A stretch of 64,000 nucleotides of DNA from Algimonas ampicilliniresistens (GTDB taxonomy: Bacteria > Pseudomonadota > Alphaproteobacteria > Caulobacterales > Maricaulaceae), in assembly GCF_030159955.1 (NCBI RefSeq), contig NZ_BSNK01000002.1, positions 1,426,001-1,490,000 of the forward strand, written 5' to 3'. Below, piece by piece: positions 5,307 through 62,551 of this stretch; within the stretch, counting starts at the first letter, position 1; every line of letters begins with the position of its first letter. The notes beneath the pieces are model-generated. The model ran no database searches and had not been told where the DNA came from. It worked only from the letters and a program-made list of their open reading frames with translations. The translations under genes were made by a program, and so were the position numbers.

Positions 5307-6475
5307 AGCCGCTCTGCGACCACATCATCGCCGTCGAGCCGCAAGCCAATCTCACCACGAAGCAATGCCAAAGCATCTTCGCCGAAGAGCGTGCGCCGCC
5401 ATCCCTTGAGGGCTTGAATGTCTGCGCTCTCACCAAAAGCGGCGAGTTGGTCGATGTCGCGGGCACCGGCTACCAGACGGGGGGCTATGCCTTCAACTTC
5501 GGTGCGTAGTCGCAGCAGGGTTTTCAGCATTTCAACACGCGGCCCCAGATTAGGCGGCATGGCCAGCGGTTTGGTCACGATCGGTGCGTAATCGTCAGCA
5601 TTCTTAAGGGCCTCGTTCATTTTATCGATCAATGATTTTGCGGCCTTGGAGCGCTCGAACCCGCGTGGGATGCCGCGCAACTTACCAAGCGCATCCAGCG
5701 TCCGCGGTTTCTGTGTGGCGAGATCATAGATCGCATCGTCCTTCAGAACCCGTCGGCGCGGGACGTCGCGGTCAATGGCTTCCTGTTCACGCCAAGCAGC
5801 AGCGGCTCGCAAAGCGGCGAGATAAGGTTTGCGCGGATTGCGGACTTTTAGCCGTTGCCAAGCCTCTTCAGGATCAAAGGTGTAGAGGCTCTCCTCCATC
5901 TGCGGTGCCATTTCTTCCATCACCCAAGACAGACGGCCCGCCTCTTCCAATTCGTCGACCATAGGCGGGAACAGATCGCGCAAATGTGTCACATCGGCCA
6001 GAGCGTAGGAGAGTTGTTTGTCGGAGAGCGGACGGCGGGACCAATCTGTGAAGCGGGCGCCCTTATCGAGACTGATGCCAAGCCGGCCTTTGACGAGCCC
6101 GCTATAGCCGACACTATCACCGAACCCAGCGGCCATGGCGGCGACTTGCGTATCGAAGATTGGACCAGGAACAGTGCCGTCGCACATCTCATAGAAGATT
6201 TCCATGTCCTGCCGCGCCGCATGCATGACTTTGACGACCGTATCGTCCATCAACAAGTCGACAAAGGGCGACATGTCGATGTTTTCGGCCATCGGGTCGA
6301 CAATGACTTCGTTGTCCGGCGTGGCTAGCTGAATGAGGCACAGAATGGAGTAGAATGTGGTTTCCCGCATGAACTCCGTATCAACGCAGACAAAGTCATG
6401 CTCACGGGCATCCTCGCAGAATAGCGCAAGCGCATCCGTGTCACGAATGACGGTAATGTCGACTGGATCGGTTAT
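5303..6475 (-). CDS. rnd: Ribonuclease D with probable ATA start
   Basis: A DEDD-type 3'-5' exoribonuclease involved in tRNA 3' maturation. The first ATG in frame (6370, MRETTFYS) falls after the Exo I motif. The reading frame upstream encodes TDPVDITVIRDTDALALFC and then VCVDTEFMRET, with the catalytic D-x-E. No ATG, GTG or TTG exists between this block and the upstream in-frame stop. The natural N-terminus coincides with ATA at 6475-6473, which overlaps the TAA stop of the dienelactone hydrolase gene as ATAA. Downstream are Exo II, Exo III (YALADVTHLRDLF) and an HRDC-like region (RRRVLKDDAIYDLA). Either a rare start codon or a point mutation/sequencing error is implied. Confidence 0.8.
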   Translation of the reverse strand: MTDPVDITVIRDTDALALFCEDAREHDFVCVDTEFMRETTFYSILCLIQLATPDNEVIVDPMAENIDMSPFVDLLMDDTVVKVMHAARQDMEIFYEMCDGTVPGPIFDTQVAAMAAGFGDSVGYSGLVKGRLGISLDKGARFTDWSRRPLSDKQLSYALADVTHLRDLFPPMVDELEEAGRLSWVMEEMAPQMEESLYTFDPEEAWQRLKVRNPRKPYLAALRAAAAWREQEAIDRDVPRRRVLKDDAIYDLATQKPRTLDALGKLRGIPRGFERSKAAKSLIDKMNEALKNADDYAPIVTKPLAMPPNLGPRVEMLKTLLRLRTEVEGIAPRLVAGARDIDQLAAFGESADIQALKGWRRTLFGEDALALLRGEIGLRLDGDDVVAERL

Positions 6476-9606: not shown

Positions 9607-11718
9607 TTAAAGTTTAGCGGTGACTGTGAACCTGAGGTTCCGACCTGGCAGCGGCAGATCGTCCTTCAGGAAGGAGGTGTGCTGGCGCGCGTCCTTATCG
9701 AATAGATTGTTTACACCCAACGAGAATCCGATTTTGTCACCAAAGTCATATCGAGCGAACAAATTGACTAAAGTGTAGCCTTCAGTGCCTCGTTCAAACG
9801 GGGCAGTTTCGGTCTGGTCGTCAGCCCAGTCTACTTCCGCCCGCAAGGTGACAGCGTCGCTTTGTGCTTCCAACCCGGCCAGGATGGATAGGGGCGGAAT
9901 GCGGGGCAAATTCTCAGTATCGGTTTCTGCTTGAACATATTCTGCTAGCGCATCGCCACTGACAGTCCAGCGGCCGGCTTCGAACAGGTCAAGCTGTCCT
10001 AAAGCTTCGATACCGTAGAATTCTGCGTCCTCGCCGACAAACTGGAATACAGGCAGTTCGTCTTCTTCTGCACCGGTCTCAGTCTCAAAAATATAGTCGT
10101 CATAGCTCGTATAGAACAGATTGACTGTTACCGCATGATTGTCCGCCCGGTGTCTGAACGCGACTTCGCCGCCCAGTGCCGTTTCCTTATCCAGCGTAAT
10201 ATCGCCAATTTCGAACTGGTTGGTCGCTAAGTGGGGACCATTGGAGAACAGCTCCTCAGTCGACGGCGCGCGTTCTGTACGGAATAGCGTCGCTCCGAGC
10301 CGGACCGTTTCACTGAGGTGAACGTCGGCCCCGCCGCTGAGGCTGATAGCGGTGAAATCGCGCGATGCACCGGTAACGGTGTTTTCCTGATCGGTTAGTT
10401 CGATCCGACCAGCGCCTTCAAAATGCCAATCGCCCGTATCAATCTCATGGAAGGTATAGGCGGCATATTGCCGTGTTTCAGTGGGCGGGACGAAGGCCTC
10501 TTCGCCGATGGCAGAGAATTCGCGGGTGCGGAGTTGTATGCCGTGCGCCGCAGACCAACTCCCTTGTTGACGCTGCACCAACTCAAGTCGGCCTTCATAG
10601 CCCTCATTGGCGAAAACGGTCCCGACCACGCCCGGACCTTCGAACTCCGTATGCGTGTAATCGGCATAACCGCCGAAGAATTGCAACCTTTCGAAGACGC
10701 CGTCCAGCTCTAGGGCGGCGTTCACGTCAAGACGGGTTTGCTCCAGACCGATGGTGACGTTTTCTTCTTCCTCTTCTTCGTCATGATCCTCATCATCGTG
10801 ATCTTCATCGTCATGATCTTCGTCTTCCTCGTGGCCGTGTTCATGGCCGCCGGGGATGCCGTAATCCGATTCAAAGCGGTGCAAAGCTGCGCCGAAGAAA
10901 CCACGCTCCCCGATCCAGCTTAGTCCAACAGTGGCGGATTTTGTTTCCACGAAACTATTCGGCAAGCGACCGCGGACTTCTTCTTCCTCTTCATGGTCAT
11001 GCTCATCATGATCTTCATCACCATGCTCTTCTTCTTCCGCCTCTTCCTCGGCCCGTAAAGCAGCACTCTCGGCGAAGTCAGGAATACGGAAGTCACCGGC
11101 GTCACGGAATGTGCCGTCCAGATGCAGAACGAGATTGCTGCCAAGTGCCTGATCGACTGAAGCCGCCGCTTCGAACCCGCTATCGACAGTGGTTGCGCTC
11201 ATGCGGAAGTCCGCCTCCGTACCGCCCTCTGGCACGACTGTTGGGATACGTCCGTCGATGACATTCACGATGCCGCCTGCGCCAGAGCTCCCATAACGGA
11301 GAATACCAGCGCCGCGAAGAACCTCGATTTGTTCTGCTTGGGCCGGTTCAGCTGCGACGGCATGATCTGGGGACGCTGATGAGGCGTCAATAGATCCAAT
11401 GCCGTTGGTCAGAACACGAACTCGGTCTCCGCCTTGTCCACGAATGATGGGCCGCGAAGCGCCGGCTCCGAAGAAGGTAGAAGATACGCCAGGTTCGGCT
11501 TTCAGTGTTTCGCCGATCGTGCTTCCGAGGCGGCGTGACAGTTCTTCGCCAGATAGGACAGAGACACCCGTAATGGCTTCGTCAACTGAGCGGGCGAGGG
11601 GAGAGCCGGTGACGATGATTTCGTCTTCGAAGGGTAGGGTATCCTGCGCCTGTGCGGAAAGGACGACAGATAGGCTCAGAAGAGCCACTTGGGCAGAGCC
11701 CATAAGATATTTAGACAT
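9607..11718 (-). CDS. TonB-dependent receptor with His/Asp/Glu-rich loops (likely metal receptor)
   Basis: A 703-residue outer-membrane receptor. Signal peptide (ALLSLSVVLSAQAQ); plug domain with IIVTGSPLARSVDEAITGVSVLSGEEL, RVRVLTNGIGS and GSSGAGGIVNVIDGR; and a beta-barrel ending NNLFDKDARQHTSFLKDDLPLPGR and a terminal aromatic/hydrophobic strand. Two loops around residues 225-245 and 290-312 are almost wholly His, Asp and Glu, the type of loop that captures divalent metals in zinc receptors such as ZnuD. Zinc is the best guess, not proven. It lies 61 bp downstream of a small secreted protein gene on the same strand, probably one operon. No clear Zur box was recognised. Confidence 0.88.
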   Translation of the reverse strand: MSKYLMGSAQVALLSLSVVLSAQAQDTLPFEDEIIVTGSPLARSVDEAITGVSVLSGEELSRRLGSTIGETLKAEPGVSSTFFGAGASRPIIRGQGGDRVRVLTNGIGSIDASSASPDHAVAAEPAQAEQIEVLRGAGILRYGSSGAGGIVNVIDGRIPTVVPEGGTEADFRMSATTVDSGFEAAASVDQALGSNLVLHLDGTFRDAGDFRIPDFAESAALRAEEEAEEEEHGDEDHDEHDHEEEEEVRGRLPNSFVETKSATVGLSWIGERGFFGAALHRFESDYGIPGGHEHGHEEDEDHDDEDHDDEDHDEEEEEENVTIGLEQTRLDVNAALELDGVFERLQFFGGYADYTHTEFEGPGVVGTVFANEGYEGRLELVQRQQGSWSAAHGIQLRTREFSAIGEEAFVPPTETRQYAAYTFHEIDTGDWHFEGAGRIELTDQENTVTGASRDFTAISLSGGADVHLSETVRLGATLFRTERAPSTEELFSNGPHLATNQFEIGDITLDKETALGGEVAFRHRADNHAVTVNLFYTSYDDYIFETETGAEEDELPVFQFVGEDAEFYGIEALGQLDLFEAGRWTVSGDALAEYVQAETDTENLPRIPPLSILAGLEAQSDAVTLRAEVDWADDQTETAPFERGTEGYTLVNLFARYDFGDKIGFSLGVNNLFDKDARQHTSFLKDDLPLPGRNLRFTVTAKL

Positions 11719-51916: not shown

Positions 51917-52007
51917 GGAGACGTGGCCGAGTGGTCGAAGGCGCTCCCCTGCTAAGGGAGTATGGGTCAAAAGCCCATCGAGGGTTCGAATCCCTTCGTC
52001 TCCGCCA
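51917..52007 (+). tRNA. tRNA-Ser (GCT)
   Basis: GGAGACG / CGTCTCC acceptor, D-arm with GGCCGAGTGG, anticodon arm CTCCCCTGCTAAGGGAG with anticodon GCT, a long variable arm (TATGGGTCAAAAGCCCATC), T-arm GAGGGTTCGAATCCCTTC and encoded CCA at 52005-52007. It directly borders an accessory region, and serine tRNA genes are common integration targets. Confidence 0.97.
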
Positions 52008-52202
52008 CTACCTTCTGGCAATCCATTGAAATTATTAAAGTTTCCCCGCTCGGGGTAGTTCCGGCCCTACCGCTGGCCCCTACCGCATGATTGGCGCTTT
52101 CGGGAACAACGGCGCTCAAGCCGACGACTTTTGCCCAATCTGTGCCCTTTTCACCGTGTCGCTAAACGCCCCCGGCTAAATCCATTTTAGAACCGGGAAA
52201 GC

Positions 52203-52929: not shown

Positions 52930-53397
52930 ATGTATGACGTTGATGATATTTGCGATTACGTCATTGCTCGCCTCAGAGCTGCTGGCGTTCACATAAATCT
53001 ATTGAAGCTTCACAAGCTTTTGTATTACGTTCAAGCGTGGGCGCTGGCCTATGATAACGAGCCTATGTTCGATGAAGATTTCCAAGCTTGGGTTCACGGT
53101 CCGGTCAGCCGTAGAATTTTTGATCGCTTCAAAGAATCAAAGTCCCTCTATTCATCAGTCGGTGTCCAGGACATAAGAGAAGGCTTTGACGCGGGCTCGC
53201 TGCGAGAAGCGACGGTAAACAACATTAATTCGGTTTTGGACGTTTACGGTGGGTTTTCTGGAGATCAGCTGGAACAGCTAACGCACGAAGAACAGCCTTG
53301 GCTTGAAGCGCGGGCGAACCTGTCGCCTACCGAAAGAAGCACGGAAGTCATTAGCCAAGAAACGATGGGCAGCTTCTATCGCGCGCGCCTGAGTTAA
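52930..53397 (+). CDS. Panacea-domain (DUF4065) antitoxin
   Basis: 155 residues of the SocA/DUF4065 family, now called Panacea: VDDICDYVIARLRAAGVHINLLKLHKLLYYVQAWALAYDN at the start, FQAWVHGPVSRRIFDRFKE near 52, and the acidic HEEQPWLEARANLSPTERS near 118. Panacea domains neutralise many unrelated toxins encoded next to them, or act as proteolysis adaptors. Gene order with the following 246-residue gene (6 bp apart) is the standard antitoxin-toxin layout. Located just inside the left transposon end. Confidence 0.88.
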   Translation: MYDVDDICDYVIARLRAAGVHINLLKLHKLLYYVQAWALAYDNEPMFDEDFQAWVHGPVSRRIFDRFKESKSLYSSVGVQDIREGFDAGSLREATVNNINSVLDVYGGFSGDQLEQLTHEEQPWLEARANLSPTERSTEVISQETMGSFYRARLS

Positions 53398-53403
53398 GTG
53401 ACG

Positions 53404-54141
53404 ATGAAGCCCCTGCTGGCTCATCCGCCCTCTCAAGCAAACCGCCCGGTTACCCGAACGCCCCCAGAGTCGTATTTCCGATTTTCACTGAGGTATTGGA
53501 AACAAATCGAAAACTTTGGTTTGGGAGAGCAAAGCCAAACTTGGTTTGTCGCATTACTCAAGCGCCTGAGATCATTATGCGAAATCACGAAAGACCGATT
53601 CATCCAAGAAGCAAGTCTCAAAGATCAATTTCATTATCACGATATTAAGTGGGATCATGCGCCCATTGACCGAAAGGATTTTGATTGGGTTGACCAAGAA
53701 ATAATTGAGAACGAAAACGAGTATCCGTTCTTTCAATTTTCTGTCTCACAGTCTCTAGGTAGGGTCGTGGGATTCTTCGAAGGCCCAACATTCTTTGTTC
53801 TTCTCCTTGACCCTGCACACAACATCTACCTCACTAAATATTCAAACTATAAAGTCACCAACACTACGATAGGAAGGTGTGACTTCTCTGGGCTGCTAGA
53901 GAAAACAGAAGCGATTGTTTCACTCGCTATAGATCATGGCGTTAACATCCCGGAGCATATTTGGTGCGGTGCACGGGGATATATCGCCAGCCAATATTCG
54001 AACCTCGTGGTTGCGAGAGTTGATGATGATACGGTTCACACGATTGACCAGTTGATAAGTCTTTCGGCAGCGGATGGCACTGCGGACATCGTAAGCGACG
54101 CATTGAAAAGCTATGCGGATCAAATGAAAGATATCGTTTAA
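53404..54141 (+). CDS. Panacea-linked protein, candidate toxin
   Basis: About 245 residues from the ATG at 53404 (GTG at 53398 is in frame). It reads SYFRFSLRYWKQIENFGLGEQSQTWFVALLKRLRSL, then FHYHDIKWDHAPIDRKDF and YPFFQFSVSQSLGRVVGFFEGPTFFVLLLDPAHNIYLTKYSNYKV. Soluble, aromatic-rich, with no membrane segment or known catalytic motif visible. Similar partners of Panacea antitoxins exist (from memory), so a toxin role is inferred from position. It is AT-richer than the host genes. Confidence 0.65.
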   Translation: MKPLLAHPPSQANRPVTRTPPESYFRFSLRYWKQIENFGLGEQSQTWFVALLKRLRSLCEITKDRFIQEASLKDQFHYHDIKWDHAPIDRKDFDWVDQEIIENENEYPFFQFSVSQSLGRVVGFFEGPTFFVLLLDPAHNIYLTKYSNYKVTNTTIGRCDFSGLLEKTEAIVSLAIDHGVNIPEHIWCGARGYIASQYSNLVVARVDDDTVHTIDQLISLSAADGTADIVSDALKSYADQMKDIV

Positions 54142-54806: not shown

Positions 54807-55210
54807 CCGTAAATCTGCTTAAGCAACGAGCGACCTGTCACGGTAATCTGCAAACCCTTTCGGTTGTTATCGTATTCCGCGTAGCCCTTTTTGATGAAGT
54901 TGGTGCTACTTGTTCTATGTGAGATCATATTGCGAGCTATCTGTGAAAACTTTGTGTCAGATCGACCATCTAGTATCTGTGCGTCCTCGCCAGAGATATT
55001 GAATATGGTCTCTAGGTGTTCGATCAAATCTGAGGTTTCAGCGAACCCGCCCGGAGCTGAGTCTAAATAACGAAGCGTTGGGACGTAAAGGTCAGCTTCG
55101 TGAAGTCTGATAGCGGTCTTAATCATAGCAGGGTCCTTTTCTGGCGTGACGATAGCTAGCGCTAAGTCGTCAAAATCGGCATTGATGGGTTCGATTATCT
55201 TCTTAGGCAC
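54803..55210 (-). CDS. Hypothetical protein linked to the transposase
   Basis: 135 residues: MPKKIIEPINADFDDLALAIV at the start, a helical middle and a C-terminal winged-helix-like end (ISHRTSSTNFIKKGYAEYDNNRKGLQITVTGRSLLKQIYG). The KKIIEPI-ADFDD opening is a short motif I associate with C-termini of phage and transposon regulatory proteins. A DNA-binding regulator is plausible but unproven. Its start overlaps the transposase stop by 8 bp and its end overlaps the convergent methyltransferase by 4 bp. Confidence 0.6.
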   Translation of the reverse strand: MPKKIIEPINADFDDLALAIVTPEKDPAMIKTAIRLHEADLYVPTLRYLDSAPGGFAETSDLIEHLETIFNISGEDAQILDGRSDTKFSQIARNMISHRTSSTNFIKKGYAEYDNNRKGLQITVTGRSLLKQIYG

Positions 55211-56114
55211 TGATCAGCTCCGCATAAGTTAGGCGTTTGCCAGCAGCCTTGGTAATTGTTGAGGCGATGAAGTCCATGGTGGGTTGATTGCGTGTGTTGT
55301 GACGATGAGCAAACTCGGTCACATAGCGATGCAAGTGTTTCGGACTCATATAGTGATAGATACCGTAGTGACCGCGCTTCAAAAGCGCCCAAAAGCTCTC
55401 AATGCTGTTCGTATGAGCTTGACCACGCACATATTCACCGACTGAATGATTTACGACGTGATGATCGAAAGTCTGGTCGAGGTGCTTATAAACGCTCGCT
55501 GCGTCCGTCATAACGGTTGCGCCTTGTGCGACATTATCGTGAACCATGCGTGTTGCGGCGCGTCTTTCGACATGAGCGGCGCGGACTTCACCGTCACGCT
55601 TTAGAACGCCAACAACGGCTTGCTTGTTTGTGAATTGCTTGCGCGCCGCGCGGTCACGCGCGTGCATATTCTTGGACTTGCCGCCAATATATGTTTCATC
55701 GACTTCAACAGTGCCTTCCAACTTGTCGCTGTCGCCATTGTTCATCCACGTCTCACGGATGCGCTGGGCTAGGAACCAAGCCGTTTTCTGTGTCGTGCCA
55801 AGCTCTTTAGCCATTTGCACCGATGAGATACCCTTGCGGGCTGTTGTCATCATATACATCGCCAATAGCCACTTCTGGAGCGGCAGACGGCTTTCAGCTA
55901 GGACGGTGCCAGTGCGAACGGAGAAGTGCTTACGGCACGTCTTGCAGCGGTAAGGCATTGGCTTATGATTTTTGCATTCAGAAACGTCTTCGCTTCCACA
56001 GTGACCGCAAGTCGCTTCACCATTCCAGCGACGTTTCTCAAAGTATAGGCGGGCGGCTTCTTCATTCGGGAACTGTTCGAAGAACTTAAACAGGCTAAGG
56101 TGAGTCTCGGTCAT
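55203..56114 (-). CDS. IS1595-family transposase
   Basis: 303 residues, full length. N-terminal zinc ribbon (CGHCGSEDV and YRCKTCRKHFSVRTGTVL), helix-turn-helix-like KGISSVQMAKELGTTQKTAWFLAQRIRE, then the ISXO2-like DDE/N domain: VEVDETYIGGKSKN (first Asp), VMTDAASVYKHLD (second Asp) and NSIESFWALLKRGHYGIYHYMS (Asn/Glu region). The gene starts 66 bp inside the right end of the element and looks functional. Confidence 0.95.
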   Translation of the reverse strand: MTETHLSLFKFFEQFPNEEAARLYFEKRRWNGEATCGHCGSEDVSECKNHKPMPYRCKTCRKHFSVRTGTVLAESRLPLQKWLLAMYMMTTARKGISSVQMAKELGTTQKTAWFLAQRIRETWMNNGDSDKLEGTVEVDETYIGGKSKNMHARDRAARKQFTNKQAVVGVLKRDGEVRAAHVERRAATRMVHDNVAQGATVMTDAASVYKHLDQTFDHHVVNHSVGEYVRGQAHTNSIESFWALLKRGHYGIYHYMSPKHLHRYVTEFAHRHNTRNQPTMDFIASTITKAAGKRLTYAELISA

Positions 56115-56354: not shown

Positions 56355-56700
56355 TTCACTGTTCTCTCACTGTTTTATCAGTAAAAGCCGGGTCTAAGAC
56401 TTGCTGCAATCTTGCCGTCTAAAGACGGATTGTTCCCTCGTATCGCCTTCGGTGTTCTTTCGGTGTATTATCACCGACCGCCACGCTGTTCTGACACTGT
56501 TTTATCAGGGTCGTCATTTCCCTGTTCTTTCCCTGTATTAACAGGGGCGGGCTGTGCTGTTCTTGTGCTGTATTATCAGCGAGAGGCGAGGTTGCTCAAT
56601 GGCTGTTCTATGGCTGTATTAACAGGCGTGGCGCTGCCTGTTCCACGCCTGTTTTATCAGGCGAGGGGCCAAGCTATTCTTAAGCTGAATTATCAGCTAA
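56355..56700. repeat. Array of eight covarying direct/inverted repeat units
   Basis: Each unit has the form arm - TTCT - arm - hexamer (TATTAT, TATTAA, TTTTAT or AATTAT) - reverse-complement arm. Both direct arms end in (C/G)TG and start exactly 11 bp apart. Examples: TTCGGTG twice then CACCGA (56448-56477); TTTCCCTG twice then CAGGGG (56517-56547); TGTGCTG twice then CAGCG (56553-56581); TGCCTG, CGCCTG then CAGGCG (56635-56663); AAGCT twice then CAGCT (56671-56698). The TGTTCT cores lie at 56360, 56453, 56487, 56523, 56558, 56604, 56639 and 56675, so spacing is 34-36 bp except 93 and 46. An extra stem CCGTC-TAAA-GACGG is at 56415-56428 and TTGGC-CA-GCCAA at 56702-56713. An open frame crosses it by chance. 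Confidence 0.85.
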
Positions 56701-56741
56701 GTTGGCCAGCCAAATGCGAACGATGGGATCGGATACGAGCA

Positions 56742-57089: not shown

Positions 57090-57443
57090 CTAGACAGGGT
57101 CTAAGTCCAAGCCTAAAATTGCTTCGACTCTCCCTAACACTTCAAGCATGACCTGACGGTCTACTTTGGAGTGAAAATCGACTTCGCGCGCGATCCAATC
57201 GACGGAGCGCATTTGGTTGCTCACCACGCACCCATCTAACCGCGCGCCACGAGGTAATTTTACATCGAATGGTGACTCGGTAATAGTACTCGTGATGGGG
57301 CAGACGACGGCTGTGCCAGTGGCAATATTAAAATTCTGAGGTGACAGCACGAGCGCGGGGCGGCGCTTTCCTAACTCAACCCCGGTTCTTGGGTCGAGAT
57401 TTAGGAATACTAAGTCACCTCTTTCGGGCTGATAAACTGCCAC
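57090..57443 (-). CDS. mazF: MazF/PemK-type endoribonuclease toxin
   Basis: About 117 residues from the GTG at 57443 (an in-frame GTG at 57461 inside mazE is also possible). Family motifs: YQPERGDLVFLNLDPRTGVELGKRRPALVLSPQNFN, TAVVCPITSTI, and a C-terminal VSNQMRSVDWIAREVDF. MazF cuts mRNA at short sequences and halts translation until MazE binds. It follows mazE directly on the same strand. A stability or defence module of the accessory region. Confidence 0.92.
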   Translation of the reverse strand: MAVYQPERGDLVFLNLDPRTGVELGKRRPALVLSPQNFNIATGTAVVCPITSTITESPFDVKLPRGARLDGCVVSNQMRSVDWIAREVDFHSKVDRQVMLEVLGRVEAILGLDLDPV

Positions 57444-57444
57444 G

Positions 57445-57687
57445 TTAAATGATTTCCTCACCCATCAACTCACCCCATTGAATTTCGGCTGAGTCGTCTT
57501 CTGGCTTTTGGTAATCAGCAAGAAGCTCAGTAAGTTTAAATCGTGGTCTTTGCGGTTTAATGTTGATCTCGCCGTTGTCGTCTACGTCGATAGCAACGTG
57601 CGCGCCCTCAGTTAGCCTAGCTTGTAGGGCAATGTGTGTTGGTATCCTTACTGCGAGGCTGTTTCCCCACTTTTTGATAGTTTGCAT
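57445..57687 (-). CDS. mazE: MazE/AbrB-type antitoxin
   Basis: 80 residues: MQTIKKWGNSLAVRIPTHIALQARLTEGAHVAIDVDDNGEINIKP is the AbrB-like swapped-hairpin DNA-binding domain, followed by an acidic toxin-binding tail (YQKPEDDSAEIQWGELMGEE). It binds MazF and represses its own promoter; candidate operator repeats lie at 57737-57755. GGAGACC precedes the ATG. Confidence 0.93.
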   Translation of the reverse strand: MQTIKKWGNSLAVRIPTHIALQARLTEGAHVAIDVDDNGEINIKPQRPRFKLTELLADYQKPEDDSAEIQWGELMGEEII

Positions 57688-57755: not shown

Positions 57756-57913
57756 ACTAAAAGTTCCTATCAAGGGGTAAAATTCAGTTGTGATTCAGCC
57801 TTTAAGTAGATTGTCGACCAAGACCGTCTAAGCCTGCGTAGGGTAAATTTTGCCTCTAAGGCTGTCCTTTCGCCACTTCTTCGTGGCGGGGCTTTGCCTC
57901 CCGCTCATAACCG

Positions 57914-58198
57914 TTATTCAACAGTATTTACGGTTATGGGCCGCTCTAGTTCATCACGAACCATTCCCAATGCTGCGGCTCGCAACGCGTCCGGGCGAAG
58001 CTCTCTCGCGGTCCTATAGGCGATGAATAGACGCACGGCATGGGGTCCGTCGATTGTGTCAAACCGAATAGCCAACCGTGCGCCCCCGGTCTTGTCAAAG
58101 CGGACATTCAGAACGCCGCCCGCTTCAACAATCTCGGCTAAGACTTCGCTCGCTTCCCGCGCCTGCCTGTCGCTGTGACGTTCCGGCGCGTCTGTCAT
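57914..58198 (-). CDS. Hypothetical 94-aa protein, phage-type
   Basis: MTDAPERHSDRQAREASEVLAEIVEAGGVLNVRFDKTGGARLAIRF and a helical C-terminal half (YRTARELRPDALRAAALGMVRDELERP). No recognised family. Its start overlaps the upstream HTH gene stop by 4 bp, so it belongs to the leftward run 59421-57914. A CGCCAC-TTCTTC-GTGGCG stem at 57871-57888 lies just after its end and may be a terminator. Confidence 0.6.
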   Translation of the reverse strand: MTDAPERHSDRQAREASEVLAEIVEAGGVLNVRFDKTGGARLAIRFDTIDGPHAVRLFIAYRTARELRPDALRAAALGMVRDELERPITVNTVE

Positions 58199-58746
58199 GC
58201 GGCTTTCTCAATATCGAATTGCCTATCGTAATTCGGGATTTGTCCGGGCCAAATAGCGTCTAAGTCGGATTGTAGCGATTCCATCGCCTCGCTATGTCGC
58301 GGATGGTCTCCGTCATCTGGATTTGTTGAGTCGAGATAGAGGCGCATCTTGTCCAGCAAATCCGCCACGGTTGCCGCTGGCGTCGCCAATGCATCGAAAC
58401 GCGCTTGATCTTCCCTTTCTGCGGCCTTCGTCTGCACCGGGTCAGCGCCTAGGTCTTCTAGCCAATTTGGGTTGGCTTCCCGCGCCTTTTCCATGGCCGC
58501 ATGATAGTCGATCCATTCCGCCATTTGATTAGCAAACGGAGTGGCGAGGGGTGCAAGCAAATGTCCGGGTTCACACTCCATTGAAACGGCAATCGCTTCT
58601 AACTGTGTCTGGTTATAAGGCATTGTCCCGTCTTCCAAGCCCTGTAGGGTCTGTTCGATAATCCCGGTCATGTCGGAAAGCTCTGCAAGGGATAGGCCGC
58701 GCCGTTCGCGCTTCGCCCTGATTTGGTTTGTTGCTGTGGTCATCAT
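58195..58746 (-). CDS. Helix-turn-helix (XRE-type) protein
   Basis: 183 residues from the ATG at 58746, which overlaps the upstream stop (ATGA). N-terminal HTH: NQIRAKRERRGLSLAELSDMTGIIEQTLQGLEDGTMPYNQTQLEAIAVSMEC (residues 6-58), matching the XRE/Cro fold. The remainder is acidic and helical without a known domain. Probably a transcription regulator of the accessory region. Member of a tight leftward operon of small phage-type genes. Confidence 0.75.
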   Translation of the reverse strand: MMTTATNQIRAKRERRGLSLAELSDMTGIIEQTLQGLEDGTMPYNQTQLEAIAVSMECEPGHLLAPLATPFANQMAEWIDYHAAMEKAREANPNWLEDLGADPVQTKAAEREDQARFDALATPAATVADLLDKMRLYLDSTNPDDGDHPRHSEAMESLQSDLDAIWPGQIPNYDRQFDIEKAA

Positions 58747-59084
58747 GCGGCCTTCCCGTCTGGTTTCGAGTGCGCAAACCAAGGTCGTGTGTAGGCTTGC
58801 AAGGTGGTGAGTGTGAGTGTTTCGGTGCATTGATCTAAGAGCCAATCAAGGCGCGCATCATCACCGTAGTGCATTGACGCCATCGCCTCGCGCTCTCGCG
58901 TTTCGATAGCTTCCCGCTCGACATAAGTGAGCCCGGTTCCGTGCTTTTCGCGTCTGGCGTGGGTTGCCCAATAGGTTGCGACAATACGGCCTGTCGGCGC
59001 AGTCAGGAACGATAGGAACGGCTCGCCTATGGCCCGAATATAGATTGGCCCGGCGTCATGGTTTTGAGGTGTCGGATCGGTCAT
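58743..59084 (-). CDS. Hypothetical 113-aa protein, phage-type
   Basis: MTDPTPQNHDAGPIYIRAIGEPFLSFLTAPTGRIVATYWATHARRE, then a helical part (YVEREAIETREREAMASMHYGDDARLDWLLDQ). No family recognised. Start and stop overlap or nearly touch neighbours (4-bp overlap with the HTH gene), the only support beyond plausible composition. Confidence 0.55.
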   Translation of the reverse strand: MTDPTPQNHDAGPIYIRAIGEPFLSFLTAPTGRIVATYWATHARREKHGTGLTYVEREAIETREREAMASMHYGDDARLDWLLDQCTETLTLTTLQAYTRPWFAHSKPDGKAA

Positions 59085-60143: not shown

Positions 60144-60770
60144 TTACCCAACCTCGCGATTGATAGCTGCTTGCGCTGCCTTGAGCGCTTCGGATGGAAT
60201 AGCTGCGGCGGCGGTTTGATCCGGCTTCTCCATGACATAGCGCCACGGTCCAAACAGGCATAAGCTCCTATGCCCATCGGTTTCCATATCAACCCTAGCC
60301 GTATAGAATGTTTGCAGGTCGCTATTCGTCCGCTGCATGAACGTTAACTCGGCTTTTTCGTATTCGGTATCATCAAAGAGTCGGCTCAATATCTCATAAA
60401 AGGCCGGGCGAGCCGTCAATTCAGACGCGGCTAAATCCTTCATCCGGGCTGGCGTCCAGTTTTGTCCATTATCCTCACTACGCTGAATCTCGGACGCGCC
60501 AAGGTTCGCCACCTCCCACGCTGCGGGCCAGTCCGCTACTTCGCGCAATCCGAACCCCATCCCACCAATCGCGACTATGATAGCAAGCGCATCAACATCC
60601 TCAGACAGTCCGAGTTGCCGCTGTGTTTCGGTAACGAGGGCGGTCCATGCATACGGGTCGCCCGCCGCAGGAATATGAGGGCTTAGGATCGAGCAAAGGT
60701 CGGCCATGATTTGCAGGATCGGCCCGCGAAGGCCAATCTTGCTCCATTCGGTTGTGCAACTTTCCGTCAT
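60144..60770 (-). CDS. Hypothetical 208-aa protein, phage-like
   Basis: Mixed helical protein beginning MTESCTTEWSKIGLRGPIL, with YAWTALVTETQRQLGL and a C-terminal SEALKAAQAAINREVG. No recognised domain, signal or membrane segment. It overlaps the next upstream gene by 4 bp, so it is the last gene of a leftward operon of large phage-like proteins. Confidence 0.55.
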   Translation of the reverse strand: MTESCTTEWSKIGLRGPILQIMADLCSILSPHIPAAGDPYAWTALVTETQRQLGLSEDVDALAIIVAIGGMGFGLREVADWPAAWEVANLGASEIQRSEDNGQNWTPARMKDLAASELTARPAFYEILSRLFDDTEYEKAELTFMQRTNSDLQTFYTARVDMETDGHRSLCLFGPWRYVMEKPDQTAAAAIPSEALKAAQAAINREVG

Positions 60771-62551
60771 TGGGACGGCCCCGCAAGTCTAAGAGCTGCG
60801 TCCTGCTTGTTTTGTCGATAACCCGTCCGGTCTGACTGTGCCGCCGCTGGTGCTGCCCCTTGCCCTAACAGTCGGGCGAGCGCCGCCGCTTGTCGTGGAT
60901 CGGCTAACATTTTTTGGATCTGACTTTCTGGAATATCGAGACCCATAGCCCGGATTCGCAATGACACGTCGCGGGCGGCTCTGATTGTTCCTCGATCCGC
61001 CGCTACTCTTGACCCAAAACCTACCGCGGCGAGAGGAAGCTGTGCGGCTAGGTTCACTCCGCCTGTTACAGGTGTGCCGACTGCCGCCGCAGCCGCTTGT
61101 ATTCCCAAATTCAATTTACTCGTCGTAGGGTCCAACGCGCCCCCGACAAGACGACCCGCATTGTTCAGGGGCGAGCCTTTGACAACTGATAGGGCCTGAT
61201 CCTTGGCCTCTTGTGGTAGATACTTCGAGTGCTTCCCGGTGGCGACTTTCTGCATCGCACGGCGAACATTGTTGTTCGTATTGCCGCCGCTGCCAGACGA
61301 CCATGTAGACTGTCGAGCGGCTTTCAAAGCATCATCAATCCGTCCAACATTCTTACTTTGCGCCCATAGACCATCTGCATTGCGAAGCGCTGCAAAAGCA
61401 TCCGGCATCTGCTCACTCATAAACCCGTCTAACTCTTGATTTAGAAGCTTGGCGGCGTGGTTATCCTCGCCCTTTCCGCCACTGACACGTTTCGCCCGTT
61501 TGCGCAGGTTAATCAGCTCGGCAACGCGGTCATCTGGTGTCAACCTCTTCATGTCGCGAACCACCCGGGATGTGGCGGGCTGCAAGGCTTTGTTTAGCGC
61601 CACGTCAGGGGCATTGAGCCGTCCCGTGACACGAGCAAGTAAATCCTGAATGCTATCGCCCACGGGCTCCGCTCGAGCGCCTAGAGCATCATAGGCGGCG
61701 TTTGCTTTCCCTTTGATCTGCGAGGCGGTCGGCAAGTCCATACGGCGGATTGGATCGGCCATGCGGGCAAGGGACTTTCCCGATCCACGTAAGACTAAAT
61801 CGGCTCCGGCTGTGAGAGCGCCGTCGCGAGCCATCGTCTTTCCGACACTGCCACCGGATAATAGGGCATCCAATCCACCAAGAGCGGCCCCATCGGCGGC
61901 TAAGGCCCCTGTGGAGGCGATTGCGGCCTTTCCCTTGCTCAAACCCTGCGGAACGAAGCGCGTGGCTGTAACACCGCCTCTAGCCAGTTTTCCAAGCCCT
62001 AACCCGGTTCCAAATAGCGAGCCAAGGTCATCACCCGCGCCCGCATCTTCATTGCGCCAATCATAGCGCTGTCGCTGCGCCTCCAAGTGGTCGGCATAAT
62101 TGTTTGGCTTGTCCATATCTTCCGGGCGAAACAGGTTCGCGATCCCGCGTCCGGCAAAGTCCGACGCCGCCGCGAGATACTTCCCGCCTAAGCCTGAACC
62201 GATCCCATCGGCGAATCCGCCAATCGGGCCGTTTCGCATGGCGTTGGGCATGGATTGCAGCTCGCTATTAAGCGCGCGCTGATATTCAGGCGGCAATGCG
62301 CGCTGTCGATTATTTCTCACCAGCGGACGCGGGGCGCTCTCTTGCTCTTGCATAGGTTGGATAGGCGAGGTCTCCACCTGCGCTCTCGACGTGGCGAGGG
62401 CTTTCTTTTGTTGCAACTCATATAGCCGCTTACGTTTGCGAAGATGATCCAAACGAGCCTGCTTTTCTTGAATTGACGGGTCTGTCGGTAAAGCCGCTGG
62501 CGAAAAGCCGGGCTCTCGCGTTGCGAGCATGGGATTTACGTTAGGGTTCAT
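60767..62551 (-). CDS. Hypothetical 594-aa low-complexity protein, possible virion component
   Basis: The N-terminal 80 residues are charged and Gln-rich (EKQARLDHLRKRKRLYELQQKK); then Gly/Ala-rich stretches (LGSLFGTGLGLGKLARGGVTA and AAIASTGALAADGAALGGLDALL) and a helical C-terminal half with AAAAVGTPVTGGVNLAAQLPLAAVGFGS. The Ala/Gly-rich amphipathic pattern resembles internal virion or ejection proteins of podoviruses, but no domain is certain. Joined by 4-bp overlaps to both neighbours. Confidence 0.5.
   Translation of the reverse strand: MNPNVNPMLATREPGFSPAALPTDPSIQEKQARLDHLRKRKRLYELQQKKALATSRAQVETSPIQPMQEQESAPRPLVRNNRQRALPPEYQRALNSELQSMPNAMRNGPIGGFADGIGSGLGGKYLAAASDFAGRGIANLFRPEDMDKPNNYADHLEAQRQRYDWRNEDAGAGDDLGSLFGTGLGLGKLARGGVTATRFVPQGLSKGKAAIASTGALAADGAALGGLDALLSGGSVGKTMARDGALTAGADLVLRGSGKSLARMADPIRRMDLPTASQIKGKANAAYDALGARAEPVGDSIQDLLARVTGRLNAPDVALNKALQPATSRVVRDMKRLTPDDRVAELINLRKRAKRVSGGKGEDNHAAKLLNQELDGFMSEQMPDAFAALRNADGLWAQSKNVGRIDDALKAARQSTWSSGSGGNTNNNVRRAMQKVATGKHSKYLPQEAKDQALSVVKGSPLNNAGRLVGGALDPTTSKLNLGIQAAAAAVGTPVTGGVNLAAQLPLAAVGFGSRVAADRGTIRAARDVSLRIRAMGLDIPESQIQKMLADPRQAAALARLLGQGAAPAAAQSDRTGYRQNKQDAALRLAGPSQ

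Follow-up and report, generated by a model that had tools for sequence, protein, structure and literature searches.

What keeps the three arms of a short sequence unit matched to each other when their letters differ from one unit to the next? This question is raised by an array (array A) of eight such units at positions 56355-56700, plus strand, of the 64-kb stretch of DNA that was analysed as a whole (the window). A sequence-only reading of the locus had offered a switchable RNA hairpin and, as the alternative, DNA with a protein bound along a single helix face; here both are set against the geometry of the units, the coupling of their arms, similar sites in phages and the element which carries the array.

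Geometry of the array

The units start at 56355, 56448, 56482, 56518, 56553, 56599, 56634 and 56670, with steps of 34 to 36 bp between five of the seven neighbouring pairs, and each is built of a 7-nt arm 1, a TTCT spacer, arm 2, a loop of 6 nt and arm 3, which is inverted (consensus NNNNCTG-TTCT-NNNNCTG-TATTAA-CAGNNNN). With up to 3 mismatches allowed, the pattern TGTTCTNNNNCTGTNTTANCAG gave 8 matches in the 64-kb window, all of them within the array, against a mean of 0.09 in shuffled sequence, which bears out the earlier description of eight units on one plan. Likewise accurate was the description of direct arms 11 bp apart around TTCT, the spacing being present in 8/8 units and the tetranucleotide in 7/8 (TTCC in unit 7); the loop is 6 nt long in all eight.

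All on the plus strand, arms 1, 2 and 3 read TTCACTG / CTCACTG / CAGTAAA in A1 (56355..56385), TTCGGTG / TTCGGTG / CACCGAC in A2 (56448..56478), CACGCTG / GACACTG / CAGGGTC in A3 (56482..56512), TTCCCTG / TTCCCTG / CAGGGGC in A4 (56518..56548), TGTGCTG / TGTGCTG / CAGCGAG in A5 (56553..56583), ATGGCTG / ATGGCTG / CAGGCGT in A6 (56599..56629), CTGCCTG / ACGCCTG / CAGGCGA in A7 (56634..56664) and CAAGCTA / TAAGCTG / CAGCTAA in A8 (56670..56700). The array carries eight arm types, one of them, that of A3, being mixed. Arm 2 matches arm 3 at 4 to 6 of 7 positions per unit and in none of the eight units fully; imperfect pairing, which had been ascribed to units 3 and 6, is indeed found there, but it is commoner than claimed.

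Neither constant repeats with unique spacers nor head-to-tail copies were found at the array, which bears out the earlier exclusion of a CRISPR and of a simple tandem repeat. A 15-bp tandem repeat of 3.3 copies is located elsewhere in the window, at 10772-10821.

Further arrays in the genome

Array A is contained in E1, a ~20.9-kb element integrated at a tRNA-Ser gene. A covariance model of 17 array units (R1), which leaves out unit C3 (33 nt identical to B4) and the 12-bp unit C5, matched at 18 places genome-wide (E <= 0.05): the 8 units of array A, 5 in two clusters at C2:1490582-1491318, which are 8 to 9 kb beyond array A in the same element, and 5 at C1:850480-850701, in a sister element (E2). 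All 18 model-detected units lie on the contig plus strand, in constant orientation relative to the integrase. Arrays B and C have a 120-bp stretch in common, with 95 per cent identity. Several arm types recur across the three array places, and TCACTG, ACGCTG and GTGCTG were seen by eye to come in the same order in all three; the arrays thus share ancestry, and the independent evidence for coupling therefore consists of eight arm types, not of 18 copies.

Weak candidates for single units with other arms were noted as well, TCCCG at L095:6305 and AACCG at L095:7902. In the window, a possible divergent single unit with AACCG arms at 57907..57937 (plus strand) has a homologous copy in the sister element; it overlaps the stop codon of a minus-strand ORF (57914-58198), is found neither by R1 nor by the phage-site model R2 described below, and is weak, about 0.8 such matches per strand being expected by chance.

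Coupling of the arms within units

The two direct arms of array A agree at 26 of 32 outer positions, compared with a mean of 11.7 when arms are shuffled among units, a value reached by none of 20000 shuffles. The inverted arm 3 agrees with arm 2 at 19/32 (shuffled mean 10.4, p 0.002) and with arm 1 at 17/32 (shuffled mean 10.5, p 0.001). The arms do covary between units, as had been proposed. When letters were shuffled within each unit instead, the direct agreement of 26 stood against 12.0 and that between arms 2 and 3, 19, against 9.2; over the 18 units of all arrays the direct arms agree at 57/72 (26.0 expected) and the inverted ones at 46/72 (24.7 expected).

For 17 units the covariation score was 0.461, against 0.142 in shuffled units and at most 0.096 in slid versions. 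Two other measures on the same units were less telling than this score: double-sided-change pairs numbered 5 against 4.0, with 98 of 500 shuffles reaching the observed value, and the number of pair types was reached by 25 of 500.

The identity of the two direct arms is the best-kept feature of the array units, above the inverted pairing. The proposal that base pairing, not sequence, is kept finds no support in this ranking, which holds in the arrays and in the phage sites described next. Likenesses to the PHO box, the LexA box, attI and geminivirus iterons were dropped, as none accounts for the arm coupling.

A matching site at the 5' end of phage terS genes

A pattern scan of genome_contigs returned 49 matches, one per locus, where ~30 are estimated at equal base frequencies, the informative one being L078, from Aestuariivirga, later scored by R1 at 41.3 bits. 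Outside the genus, two matches, L078 and L106 (genome G507), lie within the opening codons of a gene of the DUF5681 family, and other genomes do show the layout. DUF5681 is the annotated terminase small subunit in phage Pam1, and DUF5681 relatives in Rhizobium phages directly precede an annotated terL; in viral loci, 9 of 10 ORFs tested after terS match a TerL family, as does the ORF after one of G507's two terS genes.

We refer to these genes as terS and assembled the best 80 of 346 viral relatives by terS homology, plus L078 and L106. R1 gave 27 matches on these 82 terS sources, a set that includes near-identical contigs, and in 24 of them the matched place is the 5' end of terS; leaving out L078 and L106, the count is 22 of 25. 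All nine fixed letters of the site, CTGN6CAGN8CAG, occurred close to the TerS core in 39 of the 76 loci that had an anchor (the other 6 of the 82 were dropped), whereas none of 668 control windows had them all. A second set, larger than the first and overlapping with it, comprised 160 loci, 66 of which had no anchor under a stricter expression; nine letters were found in 36 and eight in 12 of the 94 anchored loci, against 1 and 19, respectively, of 850 control windows. The sites with 8 or 9 letters share one reading frame in 46 of 48 cases.

The full site is missing in about half of the DUF5681 terS loci, 46 of 94 scoring at most 7 of 9. It is absent from Pam1 and RHph_N2, RHph_N3_2 has arm 2 and arm 3 only, and in the host family the site is lacking at 7 of the 9 places where DUF5681 was found. 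A scan of the 80 viral loci by geometry only counted the 11-bp/6-nt plan 103 times against 54 in shuffled DNA; it did not single out this plan, other 12-bp plans being equally raised. An HGGxSTG-like gene is present in both L078 and E1, and the HGGxSTG-like motif was not enriched upstream of terS (4 of 84 viral loci, 5 of 172 control windows).

Selection on the DNA of the phage site

Because the site coincides with codons, it might owe its existence to a conserved peptide at the N terminus of TerS. When loci were chosen by amino acids alone, with the motif [TASP]xx[TASP]xxxQ of that peptide, 37 distinct loci of 76 were obtained. The third base is T at the first four-fold codon in 35/37 and A at the second in 35/37, whereas in the rest of terS it is T in 460/2003 and A in 356/2003. 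The 37 include L078 and L106, which had been brought in by the unit; leaving them out gives 33/35 for both codons. From this preference at four-fold codons it follows that selection acts on the DNA of the terS-start site and not only on the protein.

The arms of the phage sites are coupled as well. Among 33 non-redundant sites, taken from the 48 with 8 or 9 letters and chosen with no use of the arm letters, the direct arms agree at 63/132 positions (36.1 shuffled), arm 2 with arm 3 at 55/132 (33.2) and arm 1 with arm 3 at 57/132 (34.6). The coupling peaks at the true register, slid versions giving at most 46, 44 and 43, and it exceeds within-unit shuffling too (63 against 41.2 for the direct arms, 55 against 37.4 for the inverted ones). 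The covariation score of 31 phage sites was 0.241, compared with 0.126 when shuffled and at most 0.183 when slid; two of five covariation measures on the phage sites were not above shuffles. Arm letters track TerS protein distance weakly over 30 loci (Mantel r 0.21, p 0.001), the same test giving 0.14 (p 0.014) for the flanks and -0.03 for spacer plus loop.

Array units compared with phage sites

A second model, R2, was built from 31 viral terS sites, none of them from this genome, two out-of-frame sites of the 33 being left out. In the 64-kb window, A1 to A8 were its eight best matches, with E values from 7.4e-6 to 0.016 and the next match at 0.21, and in the whole genome 16 of the 18 matches at E <= 1 were array units; full independence cannot be claimed for this test, since nine letters from the array consensus had served to pick the 31 sites.

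Individual units resemble individual phage sites. The terS start of Rhizobium phage RHph_N3_2, which holds 6 of the nine letters (16.8 bits, E 0.036), has the same arm 2 as A2 (TTCGGTG), a nearly identical arm 3 (CACCGTC) and a different arm 1; viral contig L209 has GACGCTG twice, resembling the ACGCTG type, and viral contig L168 has GCCCTG with CAGGGG, resembling A4. Array units are near to phage sites and not identical to them, 4 to 7 of the 21 arm letters being different, and when the arms of array A are re-dealt among the units, the summed distance to the phage sites rises from 41 to 47.4 (p 0.002). We consider it highly probable that the array units are terS-start sites.

Unit-like sites in other genomes

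Searched with R1 at E <= 0.05, 12 of 138 genomes of the family had matches, including our own, where an estimated ~7 are expected by chance. Class-wide, at E <= 0.005, matches were found in 7 of 385 genomes including our own, the other six having one match each; four of these six carry TTCCCTG-type repeats with a shorter loop. Unit-like sites with no terS in the fetched stretch were found in L341, L343-L346 and L056, and weaker ones in G001, G006, G010 and G015.

The TTCCCTG type is a dispersed repeat of other alphaproteobacteria, TTCCCTG.TTCT.TTCCCTG.TTAAA.CAGGGAA, which follows the three-arm plan with constant arms and also occurs with a 12-bp period and a 4-nt loop. It is located at L101:1501-1530, at L102:1501-1530 and near 1502-1531 in L343-L346; the L101 copy is close to a tRNA-like stretch, and several of L343-L346 have, by eye, a common downstream stretch with transposase-like ORFs nearby. 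An alphaproteobacterial repeat of this type was found in 2 of 190 genomes of the class and in none of the viral_contigs.

Two single sites were noted besides. L341:984-1016, from genome G428 of another family of the class, is a lone perfect unit (TTCGGTG / TTCGGTG / CACCGAA), and no terS core was found on the 2.5-kb stretch around it. L056, an Acidobacteria MAG, has CCACCTG.TTCT.TCACCTG.TTTTAG.CAGGTGA at 720 on the reverse strand, upstream of an ORF; 7 of its 8 outer arm positions match, a result that may be chance among 72 matches.

The element that carries the array

E1 is bounded by attL (51991..52014) at the 3' end of the tRNA-Ser (gct) gene which is its integration site (51917..52007, plus strand), and by attR, a 24-bp exact repeat of attL at window-coordinate 72868-72891 (C2:1498868-1498891), beyond the window; a tyrosine integrase with an arm domain is encoded just inside the attR copy (L339:190-1425). 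To the left of the array there is an IS1595-type transposase gene (55203..56114, minus strand). Cargo comprises a SocA/Panacea-domain gene with the gene following it (52930..54141, plus strand) and a MazE/PemK-type toxin-antitoxin pair (57090..57687, minus strand). More than one HTH regulator is encoded, one of them at 58195..58845 (minus strand), together with an HGGxSTG protein and replication proteins of DUF3987 helicase-like and DUF7146/Toprim primase-like type. A 594-aa protein (60767..62551, minus strand) was assigned no family in scans of phrogs and NCBIfam; its gene adjoins that of a 605-aa protein, also with no family assigned (62548-64366), whose start is beyond the window end.

The gene after the SocA/Panacea gene (53398-54141) has a relative, 39 per cent identical over 168 aa, in Aestuariivirga (L078:6969-7715), ~3.2 kb from terS. 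Directly after the terS of L078 there is no long terL-like ORF, which makes it possible that this locus, too, is a satellite.

No capsid or terminase family was found among the scanned E1 proteins, each compared with at least one library, and neither Terminase_6N nor DUF5681 has a match inside E1. Matches of E1 to Mrr_N and Dam were weak and below the Pfam cut-offs, and PADLOC gave weak matches only for ten element proteins. The TerS core motif occurs in neither E1 nor E2, and a terS with a three-arm site was not found in this genome. The Terminase_6N matches of the genome, at C1:682 kb and C1:485 kb, are outside both elements; the latter, below cut-off, adjoins a second kind of DUF5681 gene with no three-arm site (G000:C1:485017-485959). 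With its own integrase and replication genes and no recognised terminase or capsid, E1 has the anatomy of a phage satellite, and it combines three features of PICI-like satellites: integrase and att sites, a replication module of its own and an incomplete capsid/terminase set.

The sister element E2 is located on C1 beside a tRNA-Arg gene and has blocks in common with E1 whose DNA is 84 to 97 per cent identical; the stretch searched for its att sites showed no repeat of at least 14 bp, and part of the set of its proteins was scanned for families. Large proteins with no assigned family are encoded in E2 too (L095:12075-14249 and L095:14246-15901). The E2 724-aa protein has one relative outside its own genome among 300 genomes and a weak one (24 per cent, 226 aa) encoded downstream of the major capsid gene in Rhizobium phage RHph_I1_23; it would be unusual for a satellite to carry its own virion proteins. 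Three protein queries had no relative in viral_contigs.

A zinc-ribbon gene (L095:10099-10782, minus strand) borders array C with its 3' end. Its relatives include six Streptococcus phage records, five of which are satellite phages such as Javan537, and are present in 28 of 300 genomes of the order; of the 32 places with such a relative, 28 were scanned (own genome and G006 apart), and none of these had an array. Near the tRNA-Arg end of E2, TTACGGTGTCCGAAnAGT is present in two copies (L095:6093-6110 and 6221-6238), perhaps integrase arm sites; for the arrays themselves this identity was rejected, as they lie away from the element ends.

A proposed packaging-site explanation and its alternatives

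The terS-start site is probably a recognition site of TerS for packaging, pac- or cos-like. Each unit would then be the recognition site of a DUF5681-type TerS, in which a pair of direct half-sites, both facing the same side of the helix, is followed by an inverted one, and the DNA alternative of the sequence-only reading, an 11-bp phase suited to a protein on one helix face, fits. The TerS oligomer might read the outer arm letters of all three half-sites with one and the same domain; such reading would make the arms covary from phage to phage with no need of base pairing. That E1 holds a bank of terS-start TerS-recognition sites of various specificities, serving packaging by helpers, is the explanation we favour, with some reserve. 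Helper TerS and TerL would start packaging on the satellite DNA at the array. Both would have to come from helpers, as the satellite has no recognised terS and terL, and the lack of a TerS core motif in E1 and E2 is expected if helpers supply TerS; packaging polarity would need all 18 units on one strand, as found. For the array as a multi-helper packaging bank, in which many arm types would mean many helpers served and eight types would widen the helper range, we see an even chance. A shade less certain is that the bank is matched to the TerS of different helper lineages, the arms being a specificity code of the DUF5681 terminases.

Known systems provide precedents for parts of this explanation. 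In PMC6092414 and PMC5052747, the PICIs EcCICFT073, SaPIbov4 and SaPIbov5 are satellites which, as proposed here, bear the packaging site of a helper, and EcCICFT073 is presented there as having no TerS homolog and depending on phage-type cos sites. By the same account two cos sites are functional in EcCICFT073 and two are putative in SaPIbov4, whereas a single array here brings together eight sites of different arm types; PICIs also differ from E1 and E2 in TerS family (here DUF5681) and in host group. For SPP1 and P22, too, the pac site is placed within terS or at its beginning: that of SPP1 spans the terS start and holds direct repeats (PMC4737164), that of P22 lies in the terS gene (PMC7672466); here, in contrast, the site is a compact 31-bp module of three half-sites with covarying arms. 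For PaP3, the TerS oligomer has been modelled with two of its HTH motifs at the ends of ~20 bp of cos (PMC7672466). PMC4737164 reports weak, little sequence-specific binding by the DNA-binding domain of SF6 TerS, which counts against a code, whereas the covariation observed here predicts one. Lambda cosB, with R1, R2 and R3, also has several TerS binding sites per packaging site (PMC6092414), a likeness of design only. Mobilizable plasmids with several oriT likewise widen their helper range by multiple entry signals (PMC11389934); they do so in conjugation, here it would be phage packaging.

A strand uniform in 18/18 units, which packaging polarity explains and a decoy would not need, together with the need of an element with no recognised packaging genes for some packaging signal, makes it unlikely that the array is there to bind the TerS of incoming phages, block packaging and so protect element or host, for all that its many sites are of several types and mostly set at steps of 34 to 36 bp, that toxin-antitoxin-type cargo lies beside it and that the element has no TerS core motif to match the sites. 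Slightly more doubtful still is the idea that the phage site regulates the terminase operon as an operator, its reader being TerS itself or some other phage regulator, and that the arrays titrate or mimic it: a position at the 5' end of the gene that precedes terL would suit this, and small terminase is mentioned in viral gene regulation for SF6 (PMC4737164), but the site lies mostly inside the frame into terS, often with ATG just before it (start codons being partly analyst-chosen), a position known for pac and unusual for an operator. That the units are decayed, functionless repeats spread by duplication is improbable; duplication is visible in the 120 bp which arrays B and C share, A3 resembles a hybrid of two types and some units are degenerate, but within-unit coupling persists across different arm types and the phage sites are under synonymous constraint. 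Least probable of all, and rejected in its switchable form, is an RNA, or a DNA cruciform, with alternative hairpins kept by base pairing: inverted complementarity is significant and the fold of the region beats that of most shuffled versions (z -3.65, a value equalled by 1 of 100), both of which favour it, but direct identity is better kept than complementarity, the phage copies sit in the frame into terS under synonymous constraint, G-U over A-C counts of 6 to 3 in the arrays and 17 to 14 in the phage sites, small numbers, give no clear bias, and Rfam at gathering scores matched two tRNAs only in the 64-kb window and nothing at the array.

In the open-licence literature, we found no description of a multi-site satellite array or of a DUF5681 terS-start site, and a variant of satellite packaging sites with a recognition code is possibly new here. 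The covarying module of three half-sites is a concrete candidate for the site, and for the code, of a terminase family present in many viral contigs. The bank of TerS-recognition sites, if true, shows how one satellite can use several helpers, and the module offers a route, by sequence only, for linking satellites with their helpers.
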